Part shown: positions 4,436-44,658 of the stretch, one piece after another
How the letters are laid out: the number at the start of each line of letters is the position of its first letter
How positions within the stretch are numbered: position 1 is the first letter of the stretch
Source: a virus
Virus record (IMG/VR): IMGVR_UViG_3300021364_000001
Coordinates: 123,194-187,193 of that record
Length of the DNA: 64,000 nucleotides
Strand: one strand, 5' to 3'
The notes under the pieces: model-generated
The model's database searches: none
The model's input: the letters and a program-made list of their open reading frames with translations, nothing else
Told to the model about the DNA's origin: nothing
Translations under genes and position numbers: made by a program

Positions 4436-5782
4436 TCACATGAGGTTATCGACCAGCACACGACGATAGTAGCGGTTGGCGTTAGCAGTAAGAGCACCGC
4501 TCCCCTGCGTTGTTCCTTCTGCAAACGGGTTCGCAACCATGCCGTAGCGGGTCTTGAAGCCGATCTTGGGCTGGAATGTATCCTGTCCAACGGCGCGAAC
4601 CATTTGGAGGGGCACATAGGGGCAGTAGAACAGACCAGCATCGTAGGCGCTAGAACCTTTGTAACCAGCCACATAGAAGTGACGGTCAGAAACGTTAGCG
4701 GAATAGGGGTCAACGTAGACCTTGATGCGTCCGTTCAGTGTACCAGCCAGGGTGCTGCTGTTGTCATCGGGAAGCAGGTTGCTATTACCCGAGAGAGCAG
4801 GGGTGTAATCCAGAACACCTGCCATGGACAGTGCCGAAGCAACGTCAGCAGAACAGATGAGGATGTTACCCTTCCCGCGACGAGTCTCATGACCGATAGC
4901 GTTCATGTCGCGCTCGATCTGGAAAAGGAGACCCTTGAACTTCTCAACCGACCAGCGACCGTTGGAATCAACGTCGAGGTCAAAGATGCCAGCAGTAGCT
5001 GTGTTGTTCTGAGCGCCAGGGCGAGCAATGCGGTATACGGTACGTACAACTTCGCGGTTGATCTCAGCCAGAACCTCAGTAGAGAGGATGTTGGCAAGCT
5101 CAGACTCAGCATCGAGACCATGAACAGCTTTCAGGTCTTGGGCGAGTTCAAGCGAGTATTCTGCTTTCAGAGCACGGGACTTGGCGGTGACGGTGACCTT
5201 CTCGATGGAGAAGTTCATTTCAGCGAAGGCATTGCCTGCTGCATCGCCCAGTGCCTCAGCCTCAGCAGTCGGCATACCGTCAGAGACGGTGTAGGTGCCG
5301 CTGTCATTCAGCAGACCAGGGTTGGTGCCGCTCTGGGCGGTACGACCGAGGTTCGATGCTGCGTTCTCAGCAGAGAACTCCGAATCGGCTTCGTTGAAGA
5401 AGGCTTCGGTGCCAGCGGTACGGTTGGTGCCATAGCGTGAACGCATGGCAAAGATGAGACCAGTAGGACCAGTCATCGGTTGAACGCCTGCGATATCATA
5501 GGCGATCAGCTTAGGCATCGAGCGACGGATCAGCGAGATCAGTACGGGGTCGAAACCAGCGACAGGACCAGTGGCAGTGCTGCTACCAGAGAAACCAGCG
5601 GTGCCAGCACTCATGGTGGGGGCGGCTTCACTCAGCACGCCTGCTTCCTCACGGAGGAACTTTTCTTGGTTTTCGAGCAGGATAGAGGTGACAGCCTTTC
5701 TATATTTGTCCGAAATGTTGTTCAGTTCGGAGTGTTCCAGAATGGGTGCCCACTTTTCCTGCAAAGATTCAGAGTTGAACAT
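4436..5782 (-). CDS. 23: Major capsid protein gp23
   Basis: This 448-aa protein is the expected size for cyanomyovirus gp23 (T4 521 aa). It has the HK97-type capsid layout: N-terminal propeptide, then conserved VLISLIRRSMPKLIAYDIAG and QPMTGPTGLIFAMRSRYG. Later segments include SRALKAEYSLELAQDLKAVH and the C-terminal QPKIGFKTRYGMVANPFAEG. The gp21 cleavage rule (L/I-x-E before a small residue) predicts processing at LSE-A, after residue 52, to give a mature start at AAPTMSAG. The gene sits downstream of gp22 and is closed by a strong terminator. I find no TAAATA element directly upstream, so it is probably read through from the gp22 promoter. Confidence 0.96.
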   Translation of the reverse strand: MFNSESLQEKWAPILEHSELNNISDKYRKAVTSILLENQEKFLREEAGVLSEAAPTMSAGTAGFSGSSTATGPVAGFDPVLISLIRRSMPKLIAYDIAGVQPMTGPTGLIFAMRSRYGTNRTAGTEAFFNEADSEFSAENAASNLGRTAQSGTNPGLLNDSGTYTVSDGMPTAEAEALGDAAGNAFAEMNFSIEKVTVTAKSRALKAEYSLELAQDLKAVHGLDAESELANILSTEVLAEINREVVRTVYRIARPGAQNNTATAGIFDLDVDSNGRWSVEKFKGLLFQIERDMNAIGHETRRGKGNILICSADVASALSMAGVLDYTPALSGNSNLLPDDNSSTLAGTLNGRIKVYVDPYSANVSDRHFYVAGYKGSSAYDAGLFYCPYVPLQMVRAVGQDTFQPKIGFKTRYGMVANPFAEGTTQGSGALTANANRYYRRVLVDNLM

Positions 5783-5820
5783 TTGCTTTTTTACCTTTAT
5801 TGGATAGTGGAACTAGTAAA

Positions 5821-6858
5821 TCACTTAGCCCAGCGGGAAAGTGCTTGGACGTAGGCAGACATAGTGTCGCCAACTTCCTGATTCTCAACCTGAACGTCCT
5901 CAGTAACCTCAGTTACTTCGGGCTTGGTGGAGAAATACGACTCACGAAGGGTCGCAACCTTCCCACGGAAGGATTCTTCATCATCAAACTCAACTCCCTC
6001 AGCAAGAGATGCCATCTTTTCGCGTTGCGAAAGGGACAGACCCTCACTCAGTTCGCTCACAATCCCATTCTTGATATAACCGCCGATCTCCTTAGTGAGA
6101 CCAACGTTCTCTTCGATTTGTTCGTTGAGTTTATTTTGCATGATGTCAAGTTGCTCGGTCATTTCGTCAACCAAGTCAACTTTCTCGTCGGGAAGTTCGA
6201 TAGAATTCTCGACGAAAACCTGTTTGAGTCCAGCAAGGACAGACTCAGCCATCTCGGTCTTGATACCGTGCTCGATAGCGAGTTCATTGTCCTTTGCCCA
6301 CTTGTTGACAGCAAACGAAAGATACTCGTCTACTTGCTCAGCAAGTTCAGCCTTGACAGACTCAATTTCTTCTTCAAGAACCTTAGCGTAATCGCCATGG
6401 ATACGATCCAGTTCTTCGTTGAGGCGGGAAACAACTGCCGCTTCAAAGATGGTAGCAGCCTTCTCCTTGAATGCTTCGCTCAGGTCTTCACCTTCGGTCA
6501 GCGCAGCAACGTCAGCAGAGAGGTCGATAGCAATGGTTTCGACTTCTTCTTCCTCAGCAATCACTTCCTCGCCTTCGTTCTCAACGTGATCGAAGGTAGG
6601 TTTCTTGGAGAGAGTGTCTTGCTTGTTACCCGAAGCATCGGAAGGCTTAGTGGTAGGAGCGGAAGCACTCTTGGCGACGATCTTATACTTGTTGCTCTCG
6701 TCGTCAGGCTTGCTGTTTTGAGGAGTAGGACCACCCAGGTCCTGAACGCCACCCAGGGAGGAACCGTCGTCCGACAGTTTACCCTGCGGGTCGGCAGGCT
6801 TGGCACCAGCAGTCACGCTGGATTCTTCAATGGTTGTTTCTTCAATCTTGTCAGACAT
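5821..6858 (-). CDS. 22: Prohead core scaffolding protein gp22
   Basis: This 345-aa acidic protein is the main internal scaffold of the T4-type prohead, later digested by gp21. Residues 1-115 are a low-complexity acidic extension rich in P, S, E and D. Residues about 115-290 are predicted helical with coiled-coil character (EEELDRIHGDYAKVLEEEIE, later DIMQNKLNEQIEENVGLTKE). The C-terminus (SAYVQALSRWAK) is basic and aromatic, like the capsid-contacting end of T4 gp22. It is longer than T4 gp22 (269 aa) because of the N-terminal extension. It lies between gp21 and gp23 as in T4, with a late-type element just upstream. Confidence 0.9.
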   Translation of the reverse strand: MSDKIEETTIEESSVTAGAKPADPQGKLSDDGSSLGGVQDLGGPTPQNSKPDDESNKYKIVAKSASAPTTKPSDASGNKQDTLSKKPTFDHVENEGEEVIAEEEEVETIAIDLSADVAALTEGEDLSEAFKEKAATIFEAAVVSRLNEELDRIHGDYAKVLEEEIESVKAELAEQVDEYLSFAVNKWAKDNELAIEHGIKTEMAESVLAGLKQVFVENSIELPDEKVDLVDEMTEQLDIMQNKLNEQIEENVGLTKEIGGYIKNGIVSELSEGLSLSQREKMASLAEGVEFDDEESFRGKVATLRESYFSTKPEVTEVTEDVQVENQEVGDTMSAYVQALSRWAK

Positions 6859-6897
6859 TGTGTTCCTCTTGCTGTGGTTGCTGTGATTGCTACTAAT

Positions 6898-6905
6898 TAT
6901 TTATG
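6898..6905 (-). promoter_or_regulatory. Candidate late promoter (CATAAATA) for gp22-gp23
   Basis: CATAAATA followed by ATTAGTAG lies in the short gap between the gp21 stop and the gp22 start, 40 nt before the ATG. It is the nearest late-type element upstream of the major capsid gene. Confidence 0.6.
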
Positions 6906-6906
6906 A

Positions 6907-7554
6907 TTACAGATTTTTCAGAAACTCTGAAAACGCGGAGATCTTTCTCTCTTCCAACTGGGTTTGCGCGGCATTATCGATTCGTCTTTTGATCTCATCG
7001 ATTTTAGATTCGGCAATGTTACCATTTGCCCACACCCATTCCTTACCTTCCATAATCCCGTTGACAAATGCCTCAGGGGCAGAAGGATCTGCTACGATGT
7101 CAGCAGCAGTGGCGAGCATAAAATCCTCACCAACGATCTTGACACCGTTCTCTTCCTTGATAGAACCGAGACCGCGTGAAGACACACCCAACTTCACACC
7201 CTCGTCAAGCAGTTGCTTAGCGATCTTACCCATCGGTGTTTCTAGCAGTCTTGCTTTACCGATGAAGTTATTACCTTCTCTTTGGAGAGATGTAATAAGG
7301 TGGGAAGCACGATCCAAATTAATAGTAGGACCATCGGGATGACCCAGTTCACCCAGAGCACGACCAGTTTTAACGAAATTTTCGTTATACTTCTGAACCT
7401 CACGCTCCATGGTTCTCATGGGATACATGCGACCGTTACGGTTGGTGATTTCTGCTTGAAGAAAAACACCTTCAATAAAGGTGTTACGCTTGCCGTTCTT
7501 ACCCTCGGTAATTACGATTCTTGCGTCTTCAATCTTCTCCGTTATCAGTTTCAT
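6907..7554 (-). CDS. 21: Prohead core protease gp21
   Basis: This 215-aa serine protease matches the T4 length (212 aa). It matures the prohead by cutting scaffold, capsid and internal proteins after L/I-x-E. Start: the open frame extends upstream to 7656, but ATG at 7554 (MKLITEKIEDARIV) is preceded by AGAGGA and gives the normal N-terminus. Probable catalytic histidine and serine lie in GELGHPDGPT (H72) and GVSSRGLG (S125 or S126). The C-terminus (AFSEFLKNL) is conserved in T4-like phages as I recall. The start overlaps the gp67-like gene by 26 nt, which suggests translational coupling. Likely substrates in this window include gp22, gp23 and the basic proteins at 20057-21979. Confidence 0.92.
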   Translation of the reverse strand: MKLITEKIEDARIVITEGKNGKRNTFIEGVFLQAEITNRNGRMYPMRTMEREVQKYNENFVKTGRALGELGHPDGPTINLDRASHLITSLQREGNNFIGKARLLETPMGKIAKQLLDEGVKLGVSSRGLGSIKEENGVKIVGEDFMLATAADIVADPSAPEAFVNGIMEGKEWVWANGNIAESKIDEIKRRIDNAAQTQLEERKISAFSEFLKNL

Positions 7555-7780
7555 CAGTGGGTTCCTCTGTGGGTTGGTCGGGGGGAATGGCGTCTTCGGG
7601 TTGCTCAGTGTTCTCAGGTCCCTCTTCTGGGGTTGCGAACATCTTTGCACCGACATCCTTTTTCATGTCACCAATTTTGTCCATGGCAAGGGATTTCATT
7701 TGCTGATCAACATAGTCAGAAAGATCTTTCTGTCCAGCAAACAGCGCATTTACAATTTCAAGGGATGTGTCGGAAGGCAT
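7529..7780 (-). CDS. Prohead core protein, gp67-like by position
   Basis: This 83-aa protein has a helical basic N-terminal half (IVNALFAGQKDLSDYVDQQM, then KSLAMDKIGDMKKDVGAKMF) and a very acidic, proline-rich tail ending DETDNGED. T4 gp67 (80 aa) has the same design, helix then acidic tail, and the same place between gp20 and gp21. T4 gp67 is a minor prohead core component that affects head shape and is later degraded. Sequence identity is low, so the assignment rests on size, composition and synteny; gp68 is an alternative. Confidence 0.65.
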   Translation of the reverse strand: MPSDTSLEIVNALFAGQKDLSDYVDQQMKSLAMDKIGDMKKDVGAKMFATPEEGPENTEQPEDAIPPDQPTEEPTDETDNGED

Positions 7781-20056: not shown

Positions 20057-20533
20057 TTAACACTTCCACTTTCTTAGGGCGAGTGCCTTACGAGTGGGTT
20101 CACCATTGGGTTTCTTCATAGGACCTTTCACACCACCCATACGGGCACAGAAGGATCTCTTACGAGGACCGCCTTCTGGTTGTGGTGCTTTGAGATCAGA
20201 ACCAGGGTTCTCACGCTCGTAGGACTTACGTCCTTTTTCATTCAGACCACCAGTCTTGTTCTTACCTTCTTTACGTTGCCAAGCACTTTCTTTCATGTGC
20301 ATATCCTGAGACTGATCCTTCTTCTGTACTGCCTTCATTTGCAGTTGCAGTTTCTGACGGTTCAGTTGAAGTTGGCGACGTTGAAGTTGCTGTTTCTTAT
20401 TAGCGACAGCATCTTCTTTCAGTGCCGCCTTCTCTTCGCATGTCTTCTCGACACACATCTGACACTTGTTGCAATACTTCTTGCCCTCAGGGCAGTTGTT
20501 TGCTTCGTTTAGGTATTCCTTGAAACTAATCAT
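20057..20533 (-). CDS. Basic DUF6321-like protein with a capsid-targeting-like leader
   Basis: This is a 158-aa protein. The N-terminus MISFKEYLNEA resembles the leader of T4 internal head proteins (for example MKTYQEFIAEA), and LNE-A fits the gp21 cleavage rule after residue 10. Cysteines C14, C21, C24, C27 and C32 follow (NCPEGKKYCNKCQMC), then a lysine/glutamine-rich helix (RRQLQLNRQKLQLQMKAVQK). The C-terminal half matches what I recall as DUF6321 (KTGGLNEKGRKSYERENPGS, then KRSFCARMGGVKGPMKKPNG). The protein is very basic. Inference: it could be packaged with or around DNA in the head. The start forms an ATGA overlap with the 42-aa gene. Confidence 0.72.
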   Translation of the reverse strand: MISFKEYLNEANNCPEGKKYCNKCQMCVEKTCEEKAALKEDAVANKKQQLQRRQLQLNRQKLQLQMKAVQKKDQSQDMHMKESAWQRKEGKNKTGGLNEKGRKSYERENPGSDLKAPQPEGGPRKRSFCARMGGVKGPMKKPNGEPTRKALALRKWKC

Positions 20534-20658
20534 CTTGGTTTCTTGGGGCAGTTTTCTTCATGCTTTTCGATCCATGCCCTAGGACGCCAGTGCCCTTTGG
20601 GGGAGGTCAGACCGCAGTGCTGACACTTCCAAGTTCCGTTGCTCTGTTGTTCAGCCAT
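20530..20658 (-). CDS. Mini zinc-finger protein (42 aa)
   Basis: The frame reads MAEQQSNGTWKCQHCGLTSP and continues KGHWRPRAWIEKHEENCP. C12 and C15 (CQHC) with H33 and C37 form a possible CCHC zinc finger, with H23 as an alternative ligand. It overlaps the 442-aa gene by 8 nt and the 158-aa gene by ATGA, so it tiles perfectly between them. Such small fingers often bind nucleic acid, but the target is unknown. Confidence 0.6.
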   Translation of the reverse strand: MAEQQSNGTWKCQHCGLTSPKGHWRPRAWIEKHEENCPKKPR

Positions 20659-21979
20659 AATGGAAAGATCCCTTGTTAGTTTTCTTAGGCAGTTTCTTGC
20701 TTCTCACCTTGGTTCCAGATGTTTCACCGTACCCTTCGGGATGCTTACCTGCTTTGGTTTTACCGATAGAGTCGGACTTAGCCTTACTACCCTTCTCAGT
20801 GTAGTGTAGTTTAGCAGATTTGTCCTTATCTTTGGTAATGACGGATTCTTGTCCATGCTTGCGACCGAGACGACGCATCACTTTGCCGAAACGACGCTTG
20901 GACATCTTATCAGGTTTTGAAGTCTGATAGGATACCTCACGACCAGTTTCGCCACTACCATACTTATACTCACCGACACCTTTCTTATGACCGATGCCAT
21001 GCTTTTTGAGATCCTTCTCTAAGTTCTTGCGACCTTCCTTGTTCTTCTTCTCATCAGAACCACGGTCAGCAGAGATATGACCAGTAACCTGGGTGTTAGA
21101 CTTGTGCATCATACGACCAGTGCGGTTACCCTCTTCGAGGAAACTCTTGAAGGACTTACCTTCCTTTCTCAGACCCAACTTACCTAACAAAGATTTCTTC
21201 TTAGGTTTAGCGGACAGAGAAGAACCTCCCTTCTGGCGCTTGGCATAGTCCATGTAAGACTCACCAGGACGCAGTTTCTTGGGGTCAGACTTGGGTTTAG
21301 ATGCAGCAGCACGATCCTCGCGAGCACGTTGGTTAGCACCAGGACCACCCAACTTCTTATCTTTCTCAGGATCGGGATGCCAGAAGTCACCACGCTCAGC
21401 GATCACTTCTTCTTTTGCCAACTTTGCTTTACGCTTTGCCTTGGTCTTGGCAAGGATTCTTGCACGAGCATCATCTTGTTCCTTCTTAGGAATAGCAGTG
21501 ACAGCACCAACTTTCTGGTCAACGTCACCAGGTGCATAACCTTCATTCTTTTTCTTAGAAGTATCCATAATGGCACCTTTGCCATGCTTCTTACGGATCT
21601 CTGCTTTCACAATGTCAAGAGCAGAGGCACCTTTGCCGTGCTTCTTCTCCATATCTTTTTGGAGTTGAGTCTTGCCAGGTTTGATACCTAACTCTGCATT
21701 GGTTGCTTTTCTAGCAGGAGGGCGATCGTAACGTTTGTTTCCACCAACACCACCACGTTCCATACGACGATCTTTCATGCGATCGTAGTCTTCCTCGTTG
21801 ATAAATTCTTCTTTCTTCATTGGTAAACCTTTGTGTTTGGTAGAAGCAAAATCTTTTACTGCTTTTTTCTTCATGCTGGCAGCAACTTCGGCAACCTCAG
21901 GCGATGACGCCCCCTCACCTTTCTGAGCAGCTCGGACCATCCCGAAAAATCTTTGTTGTTTTTTAGAGACGGCAGGCAT
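20651..21979 (-). CDS. Large lysine-rich DUF3008-like protein (442 aa)
   Basis: The N-terminus (VSKKQQRFFGMVRAAQKGEG, then SMKKKAVKDFASTKHKGLP) matches what I recall of DUF3008, usually a small protein of about 60-70 aa. Here it is extended by low-complexity basic sequence with repeated KKHGKGA motifs near residues 113 and 133, and a second repeated part (KHGKGAS... and KHGKGAI...). Near residue 283 the sequence SFKSFLEEG resembles a T4 internal protein leader with an LEE-G cleavage site for gp21. Residues 290-442 are again basic and look like a separate domain (TGHISADRGSDEKKNKEGRK, RFGKVMRRLGRKHGQES). It may be a DNA-binding internal head protein; that is inference. Confidence 0.7.
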   Translation of the reverse strand: MPAVSKKQQRFFGMVRAAQKGEGASSPEVAEVAASMKKKAVKDFASTKHKGLPMKKEEFINEEDYDRMKDRRMERGGVGGNKRYDRPPARKATNAELGIKPGKTQLQKDMEKKHGKGASALDIVKAEIRKKHGKGAIMDTSKKKNEGYAPGDVDQKVGAVTAIPKKEQDDARARILAKTKAKRKAKLAKEEVIAERGDFWHPDPEKDKKLGGPGANQRAREDRAAASKPKSDPKKLRPGESYMDYAKRQKGGSSLSAKPKKKSLLGKLGLRKEGKSFKSFLEEGNRTGRMMHKSNTQVTGHISADRGSDEKKNKEGRKNLEKDLKKHGIGHKKGVGEYKYGSGETGREVSYQTSKPDKMSKRRFGKVMRRLGRKHGQESVITKDKDKSAKLHYTEKGSKAKSDSIGKTKAGKHPEGYGETSGTKVRSKKLPKKTNKGSFHYG

Positions 21980-42804: not shown

Positions 42805-44658
42805 TTACTCAGGTTCAGTTCTGACGAGATTAGTGTACTCTTGTTTGACAAACTCACCAGTAGCACCTGACGACTGACCAGAGAGAGTGTCGGAAGTCGT
42901 GAACTTATAAGTGTTGCCATTGTTGGTAATCTCTTTCAACTTGATATAGTGATATCCAAAGGAGTCTGCCTCTGGATTGATTGCCTCAGCAACAACAGCA
43001 GTGACACCTGTCGAGGATCCAGTGACGGTTTCTCCGACAGAGAACAAGGTATTGTTCCAGTTCTTAATTTGAATAGTGGTTGTAGCAATATGCTCAATAC
43101 CATCACCCAGTTCACCAGCAGTAGAAATAGTTGCAGTCAGAGGAACCAGGTTGGAGTCATAGATTTGATCGCCTTGCTGGAACAGAGTAGTGTTCTGACC
43201 ACCAACTGTTTCTTCAATACCATACAGAGAGGAAGCAATACCGCCGTCAAGACTGATCTCGTTCTCGAAGTCTGTATCAGTATTTACCAAGTCGATGATA
43301 CCGTCACCTGCACCATCTAATTCATCATCATCTTCAAAACGGAATCCTTCTAATGTAGAGAGAGGATCTGTAAAAGTGACAATACTCCCGTTTTCATCTT
43401 CAATCAAAACGTGAGGTTCAACACCTGTACCAGACGAAGCAGAAGAACCTGCAATGAACTGAATCACAGCAGTGCTTTCATTGGATCTACCACCATCAAT
43501 GAAGGCCAGTTCATCAACTTGGAATGTCAGGAACAGTTCTCTGGTATTAGGACGCCAGTCGTAAACGATAGCAACCTTGTTACTCTTATCTTCTTCAACT
43601 CTTCTAACACGGTCAGACACCGTGAAGGAATATCCAGAGATACCTGTATTGGGATCCGTAGCAAGATTATCAAGGATCACACGCTGGTCATAACGGAAGT
43701 TGATACCTCTATCACATCCAGTAAAGGAAATCGCTGTTTTACCTGTATATCTAACAATCTCCGTTCCAACTTGAAACTTACCAGAACCAGGGAACGCATT
43801 TGTGGTTTCTACATATATTGTTCCATCATTTGCCTCAACATCTCTGATGATGGCAGTCATATTGTAGAAGTCAGAGACAAGAGATGTTCTGTTTCTCTGC
43901 GCTCTGATCAGGTTGGTATCACGAGTAAAGATAACCTGAGGTGCAGAAGTATATCCACCACCAGGATTTAGTAGGTTGATATTAGTGATTCTACCTAGAT
44001 TGATCTCTGCCTCAGCGGCAGCACCAGATCCACCACCACCGATGATTTGTAGAATAGGAGGAGTCTCGAAGAACTCACCTTCTTCCGATACCGTAATACT
44101 TTCAATAACACCGAATTGGTTGACCTCAGCAACACCTTCGGCACCTGAACCACCGCCACCACCAGAGATAACAATAGTAATATCTTCGGAGGTATAGTTT
44201 CTGCCGTTGTTCTCAACAGCAAGACCAGTCACACCACCAGTGACAGGAACTAGTTCTGCACCAGATCCACCACCACCTCTGAGGTATGCCTCAGCGTTGA
44301 AGTATCCATCACCAGGTTGATTGACCTGCAAGAAACTAACAGAACCATCAGCATTTAGGTAAATGTTAGCATCTGCATCAGTAACACCTGGGTCATTACT
44401 AACGATATCTAAACGAAGAGGATCGTACCCTTCACCAGGATCGATTACATCAACAGAAAGAATTTCACCGTTATCGGCAATATTTGCCCTAAGAACGGCG
44501 TCTCTGATAGGGGTGCCACAATTACCAATAGACAACCTTGGTGGGTTGTTGGGGTCATACCCACTACCACCATTCGTTACGATAACGTCCTTAACTCCAT
44601 ATACAGAGTTAAAGACGGGCTCGATAGTTGCACCTGATCCTGGGACTGTTCTTGGCAT
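42805..44658 (-). CDS. Virion structural protein with glycine-rich beta repeats (617 aa)
   Basis: The first 260 residues consist of repeated units of about 45-60 aa with the core GGxGYxxxPP, such as VIVTNGGSGYDPNNPPRLSI and NLLNPGGGYTSAPQVIFTRD, with GGGGSGAxAEAEI connectors. The same units occur in gp8 and in the giant protein. Later parts have VGTEIVRYTGKTAISFTGCD and FSVGETVTGSSTGVTAVVAE. There is no enzyme motif. It shares one base with the stop of the 494-aa gene and precedes gp8, so it is probably a baseplate-associated protein. Confidence 0.75.
   Translation of the reverse strand: MPRTVPGSGATIEPVFNSVYGVKDVIVTNGGSGYDPNNPPRLSIGNCGTPIRDAVLRANIADNGEILSVDVIDPGEGYDPLRLDIVSNDPGVTDADANIYLNADGSVSFLQVNQPGDGYFNAEAYLRGGGGSGAELVPVTGGVTGLAVENNGRNYTSEDITIVISGGGGGSGAEGVAEVNQFGVIESITVSEEGEFFETPPILQIIGGGGSGAAAEAEINLGRITNINLLNPGGGYTSAPQVIFTRDTNLIRAQRNRTSLVSDFYNMTAIIRDVEANDGTIYVETTNAFPGSGKFQVGTEIVRYTGKTAISFTGCDRGINFRYDQRVILDNLATDPNTGISGYSFTVSDRVRRVEEDKSNKVAIVYDWRPNTRELFLTFQVDELAFIDGGRSNESTAVIQFIAGSSASSGTGVEPHVLIEDENGSIVTFTDPLSTLEGFRFEDDDELDGAGDGIIDLVNTDTDFENEISLDGGIASSLYGIEETVGGQNTTLFQQGDQIYDSNLVPLTATISTAGELGDGIEHIATTTIQIKNWNNTLFSVGETVTGSSTGVTAVVAEAINPEADSFGYHYIKLKEITNNGNTYKFTTSDTLSGQSSGATGEFVKQEYTNLVRTEPE

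Follow-up and report, generated by a model that had tools for sequence, protein, structure and literature searches.

Basic proteins of a T4-like cyanophage with putative T4-type capsid-targeting leaders, one of them ahead of a probable SAM lyase

For the internal protein IPIII of phage T4, the first ten residues are enough for packaging; targeting is determined by residues 4 and 7 and processing by residues 8 and 10, and L/I-x-E marks the site behind which gp21, the prohead protease, cleaves (PMC9026906). With D in place of E10, IPIII still reaches the head but escapes cleavage (PMC9026906). In the phage SAM lyase Svi3-3, residues G56, E69 and Q104 are strictly conserved and Y58 closes the site (PMC7877911). 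Phage-injected polyvalent proteins (cited in PMC7824862) are multi-module proteins thought to enter with the DNA. A SAM hydrolase was already published as a component of S-CREM2 virions, and its entry into the host was suggested (PMC10665884). In the open-access literature, no paper was found that links capsid-targeting sequences to cyanophages.

The window analysed here is a stretch of 64,000 nucleotides, positions 123194-187193 of a 187,193-base IMG/VR record. The genome belongs to a T4-like cyanophage, the Synechococcus phage S-WAM1 being nearest among the named records. On the minus strand, gp13-gp14-gp15-gp16 and a DUF7243 gene are followed by three overlapping genes for proteins of 442, 42 and 158 aa (overlaps of 4 and 8 nt). 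The 442-aa/42-aa gene order is common to S-WAM1, and all three genes are present in S-SZBM1, in which the 42-aa gene also lies between the other two. An earlier note had proposed the two larger products as lysine- and arginine-rich internal head proteins. The three ORFs agreed with that description in coordinates, strand, residues and composition, including the richness in basic residues (pI 9.9 and K+R 24% for the 158-aa protein; pI 10.2 and K+R 26% for the 442-aa protein). The zinc finger placed between them was identified as one C-x2-C...H-x4-C knuckle, but it carries no leader, and its tie to the capsid is operon position alone. A scan for late promoters detected few sites. The features of the window are as follows.

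20057..20533, minus strand: 158-aa basic protein with a CTS-type leader, Cys module and DUF6321 (ORF, Pfam)
20504..20533, minus strand: putative capsid-targeting leader MISFKEYLNE, predicted cut E10/A11 (15/15 homologous N-termini; T4 IPIII positions, PMC9026906)
20438..20494, minus strand: Cys module CPEGKKYCNKCQMCVEKTC, residues 14-32 (conserved in the homologue alignment)
20285..20296, minus strand: second possible cut, MKE82/S83, just before DUF6321 (putative)
20066..20266, minus strand: DUF6321 domain, residues 90-156 (Pfam E 3.8e-24)
20530..20658, minus strand: 42-aa zinc-knuckle protein, overlapping both neighbours (ORF)
20651..21979, minus strand: 442-aa modular basic precursor (ORF, domain and PHROG matches)
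21794..21979, minus strand: DUF3008-like module, residues 1-62 (Pfam 18.9 bits, under the 24-bit cutoff)
21791..21802, minus strand: L/I-x-E site INE62/E63 at a module border (putative cleavage)
21392..21403, minus strand: L/I-x-E site IAE195/R196 before the RGDxWHPDP module (putative cleavage)
21131..21154, minus strand: internal leader SFKSFLEE, residues 276-283, predicted cut E283/G284 (44 unique junctions)
20654..21130, minus strand: SAM-lyase domain, residues 284-442, predicted mature product (PF23780 E 3.7e-8; Foldseek)
6907..7656, minus strand: prohead protease gp21, presumed to carry out the processing (phrog_207, E 5.8e-87)
4436..5782, minus strand: major head protein gp23, with a likely gp21 site of its own, LSE/AAPT, cut E/A (phrog_138, E 2.3e-171)

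Our main reading, to which we give a probability of about 0.72, is that the two larger proteins are T4-type capsid-targeted, gp21-processed cargo of the DNA-filled head, and that the 442-aa polyprotein releases a SAM lyase, probably delivered at infection. We strongly infer capsid targeting and gp21 processing from the sequences, and infer packaging from the virion homologues in two relatives, while injection and use against host defence are suggested by analogy with T4 alone. Next to gp21, at window positions 5800-7700 (G000:C1:129000-130900), a frame similar to the gp22 scaffold was observed along with a small acidic protein, both resembling the prohead-core genes of T4.

The 158-aa protein starts with aromatic residues at F4 and Y7, L8 and E10, matching all four control positions of T4 IPIII, and the likeness to leaders of T4 internal proteins pointed out earlier thus holds at positions 4, 7, 8 and 10, with E10 as P1 and A11 as P1'. 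The locus is also similar to T4 IPI-IPIII and Alt (PMC9026906) in leader length, in the L/I-x-E rule, in the small basic products (here predicted) and in the presence of gp21 in the genome; the gp23 site of T4, FGSFLTE/A, has the same extended form. Both LNE/A of the 158-aa protein and LEE/G of the 442-aa protein conform to the cut rule of L/I-x-E followed by A/G/S. Unlike T4 internal proteins, the mature parts here are different, with SAM lyase and DUF6321 as the cargo. In T4 the CTS is N-terminal, as is the leader of the 158-aa protein, whereas that of the 442-aa protein is located inside a polyprotein, for which there is no T4 precedent.

Alignment of homologous N-termini, proposed in the earlier note as a check, showed that 15/15 unique homologues carrying the Cys module keep the leader pattern at the positions that govern targeting and processing in T4, and that an E/G site is present at 44/44 junctions of the 442-aa family. 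In the former group (n=15), 13 members have A or G as P1' and two have K, and D was found at this position in several short DUF6321 proteins. These short proteins often contain hardly anything beyond leader and domain (for instance MTFDEFVTEASAAWQRKEG and MKSFNEFITEDWQKKSG), and in some of them L/I-x-E is degenerate (MKTFQEFHESAWQ). The DUF6321 profile matched the 158-aa protein at 85.6 bits, against a cutoff of 28.5; ahead of the domain, most homologues have E followed by S/G/A (or E-K-S) before AWQRKEG. Cys-rich starts similar to the Cys module were found in the virion proteins S-CREM2 gp15 and S-SCSM1 ORF29. The fold model of the 158-aa protein (pTM 0.28) gave no match in PDB.

For the 442-aa protein, about 95 homologues encoded by ORFs of 178 to 1037 aa were compared. 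The domain on the C-terminal side is constant and the preceding modules change, with [ST][FY]xx[FY][LI]xE/G at the border. All 44 distinct junctions have E at P1, G at P1' and F/Y at both P4 and P7; P3 is L/I in 43 and M in one, and P8 is S/T in 41. The intervening positions are variable (2.1-2.4 bits at P2, P5 and P6; 2.4-3.4 bits at P9-P20). Since the positions relevant in T4 are kept and the flanks vary, simple shared descent is an insufficient explanation. The earlier note had located SFKSFLEEG correctly (residues 276-284, cleavage predicted behind E283), and its reading of a gp21-type basic protein agrees with the conserved site, but it had overlooked that the leader is internal, that a SAM-lyase domain follows and that the build is modular with several sites. 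In one relative (L076) the lyase domain follows an N-terminal MKTFSQFMAEG, and this single leader precedes a fusion of SAM lyase with DUF6321. Internal translation initiation at the inner leader was considered and rejected: the codon at P9 is AAG, CTT, GAG or others and rarely a start codon, indicating that the inner leader is translated within the larger protein.

The 442-aa precursor appears, from its sequence, to be a polyprotein of small basic modules that would be processed between them. Exactly three L/I-x-E sites are present (INE62, IAE195 and LEE283), each bordering modules; their P1' residues are E, R and G, the last alone falling in the A/G/S class. At the site before RGDxWHPDP, P1 is E in all homologues and P3 is I/L in nearly all, with P2 variable. 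Among 63 unique fusions, L/I-x-E exceeded shuffles 2.3-fold (z 18.5, compared with z 1.5 for L/I-x-D), but L/I-x-K was also raised in these related sequences (z 9.6), and the enrichment is therefore suggestive and partly compositional. The score of the first module against the DUF3008 profile, 18.9 against 24 bits, is under the cutoff, and the module is accordingly labelled only DUF3008-like. Polyvalent proteins (PMC7824862) are also multi-module; the modules here differ in being small, basic and separated by putative protease sites. Outside the window, a 525-aa modular basic protein (G000:C1:91782-93359) has PHROG families in common with the 442-aa protein; it adjoins a cytidylyltransferase gene, and the S-SZBM1 gene at the same position (_139) encodes a virion protein.

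The domain behind the internal leader is probably a SAM lyase, as judged from sequence motifs and a predicted fold. Residues 302-410 matched PF23780 (phage SAM lyase) at 33.8 bits, against a curated cutoff of 28. The AlphaFold2 prediction for residues 284-442 (pLDDT 67) has a GlnB-like alpha-beta fold, and its comparison by Foldseek with 350,542 PDB chains placed the Svi3-3 SAM lyase at ranks 1 and 2 (6znb, 6zm9) and T3 SAMH (7ock) at rank 4; with E-values of about 1e-3 and TM of 0.30-0.53, the fold support is moderate taken alone. Sequence searches of PDB with the domain, both single and profile, found no phage SAM lyase, which was detected by fold comparison alone. Active-site equivalence was assigned by motif and by a weak hhalign to T3 SAMase; this forced alignment brought the G-x-Y and Q-[DE] motifs into register, at low probability. 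The matching G, E and Q, and the S of E-x-S, are invariant across 31 aligned sequences; G, E and Q, located in G-E-Y, E-V-S and Q-E-S, stay unchanged down to 27-36% identity. The Y of GEY is present here and is W in four distant members. The domain thus resembles Svi3-3 (6zm9, 6znb) and T3 SAMase (PMC7877911) in Pfam family, predicted fold and the G-x-Y/E-x-S/Q-E-S residues; unlike it, those enzymes have been described neither with a capsid leader nor within a precursor.

Virion evidence was taken from relatives: three phages whose virion proteomes have been published (S-SZBM1, S-CREM2 and S-SCSM1) were searched by BLAST with the proteins of the window. Beyond S-SZBM1, the closest of them, the matches were to virion proteins only. 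S-SCSM1 ORF93, a stand-alone virion protein, is 70% identical to residues 1-62 of the 442-aa protein; the virion protein S-CREM2 gp6 is 35% identical to residues 275-442, covering leader and lyase; and DUF6321 homologues are S-SCSM1 ORF29 (45%) and S-CREM2 gp137 (35%). The start of gp6 is MKDFDSFLEE, with LEE/S ahead of the lyase domain; its leader is N-terminal, unlike the one here, and neither leader nor cleavage site is mentioned for gp6 in the available part of PMC10665884. The earlier remark that such proteins were not obviously described as internal proteins is right as regards tag and processing, but not as regards the virion SAM hydrolase.

In S-CREM2, all four proteins with a T4-position leader were detected in virions (gp6 SAM hydrolase, gp14 kinase, gp136 and gp154 cytidylyltransferase). 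When the three proteomes were pooled, leader proteins were detected in 6/9 cases against 124/710 for others (Fisher p 0.0016), a value that concerns 9 leader proteins, mainly of S-CREM2, and is partly post hoc because the T4-position pattern was adopted after a weak test with loose motifs. Virion presence, proposed in the earlier note, was found for module homologues of S-CREM2 and S-SCSM1 but not for the S-SZBM1 orthologues _192 and _194, which were not among the 30 virion proteins detected. S-SZBM1 virions did contain the leader-bearing cytidylyltransferase (_140) and the modular basic protein (_139). Protein _194 should yield 30 usable tryptic peptides, its lyase part only 5, and poor tryptic coverage accounts only partly for the non-detection. 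Together with the 15/15 and 44/44 conservation, the virion homologues support the reading as T4-type internal proteins.

In the pathway that we propose, the leader would bind the prohead core through targeting residues 4 and 7, gp21 would cut after L/I-x-E, and the mature basic products would stay with the DNA inside the head. A product of residues 11-158 (Cys module and DUF6321) would arise from the 158-aa precursor, and the cut at LEE283/G284 of the 442-aa precursor would free the SAM lyase. The shared T4 head-loading tag and the lyase behind a conserved cut site indicate that the virus probably delivers ready-made proteins with its DNA. At infection, the products probably enter the cell along with the DNA; the lyase would remove S-adenosylmethionine prior to any phage gene expression, and this removal would blunt SAM-dependent defence or methylation.

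We consider it unlikely that these proteins are instead components of the prohead core or scaffold, cut by gp21 like gp22 and gp67 and mostly degraded and expelled before packaging. The several L/I-x-E sites at module borders with their 2.3-fold excess, the basic, modular, low-complexity build and the S-SZBM1 virions without detected orthologues would all agree with such a role, but the site excess is partly compositional, homologous modules persist in mature virions of S-CREM2 and S-SCSM1, and a folded enzyme domain with a conserved active site is hard to reconcile with it. Clearly less probable still is an intracellular SAM lyase made after infection, with the leader-like stretch otherwise employed and the virion detections due to carry-over. 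T3 SAMase is indeed an early cytoplasmic protein (PMC8406200), and the proteome authors caution about carry-over after CsCl purification; the gene here, however, sits in the late head/neck cluster beside gp13-gp16, exactly the T4 targeting and processing positions are kept while their neighbours vary, and the identical leader type is found on unrelated proteins. Chance resemblance of a short motif in lysine-rich sequence is hardly credible and already contradicted, as the functional positions are conserved 15/15 and 44/44 across variable flanks, and aromatic-4/aromatic-7/hydrophobic-8/E10 is expected at 0.023 starts over the 204 non-overlapping ORFs of the genome, or 0.004 with A/G/S at position 11.

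The 158-aa protein has this start pattern, as does, with an offset of a few residues, a cytidylyltransferase (G000:C1:93319-94377, outside the window; leader MGQMRFRQFIIEA), the sole other leader-bearing gene of this genome, whose family is repeatedly found in cyanophage virions. With a looser motif, five places were found among the 671 ORFs of the 187-kb record: both proteins, the leader of the cytidylyltransferase and two matches that are probably due to chance. Other leader-tagged virion proteins in relatives include an NMNAT-like protein and a kinase. A DNA-pattern scan of IMG/VR for MK[ST]FxxF/Y(hydrophobic)xEA gave at least 125 matches; among the matches listed, at least 121 were open ORFs with a length of 60 aa or more, which fell into at least 55 unrelated clusters, mostly basic (median mature pI 9.5). 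The Pfam names among the matches listed included cytidylyltransferase, zeta-toxin/AAA, adenylate kinase, GNAT, RNA ligase, lysozyme, DUF6321 and Acb1 anti-CBASS. The shifted control pattern was unclean, with F at position 4 in about 19/45 matches, and the scan figures are lower bounds; no clean enrichment ratio is therefore claimed.

A wider proposal, to which we give slightly less than even odds, is that MK[ST]FxxF(L/I)xE is a portable head-loading code, placed ahead of or inside chains of unrelated modules, from which gp21 would make effectors acting before expression, so that injected proteins could be listed from sequence. If so, the effectors would include SAM lyase, NMNAT-like enzymes, kinases, Acb1 and others. 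The tag makes protein delivery by cyanophages testable across thousands of marine phage genomes, several "hypothetical" virion proteins gain a first function-level reading, and the data suggest that SAM destruction and other counter-defence may be carried ready-made in the head.

Several further proteins were observed. Acb1 anti-CBASS (Pfam E 2.8e-23) follows the leader MKTFREYLAEA at L285:2104-2571 (IMGVR_UViG_3300050162_000268), which suggests a head-packaged anti-CBASS enzyme. Leader proteins at L224:3736-4149 and in L244 and L280 have a YHGTxxxxAxxIxxxGF-like start, ADP-ribosyltransferase-like by eye (compare T4 Alt), that of L224 having no Pfam match. S-CREM2 gp12 (OR473000 7704-10313), annotated as Cas9-like and detected in virions, has a leader-like RFASFMAE/A near its N-terminus. 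Small leader-bearing proteins, MKSFKSFLSESVNISGDF (S-SZBM1 122311-122628) and MKTFKQFMSESVNISGDF (S-SCSM1 44215-44535), were not detected in virions. Finally, the N-terminal arm of mature gp23 (GFTG...GPVAGYDPLM) was found duplicated in three non-gp23 proteins, S-CREM2 gp160 (OR473000 128342-129235), S-SCSM1 ORF97 (MK867354 93121-93306) and L303:14-901; two of the three were detected in virions, and the arm may thus anchor cargo to the shell.
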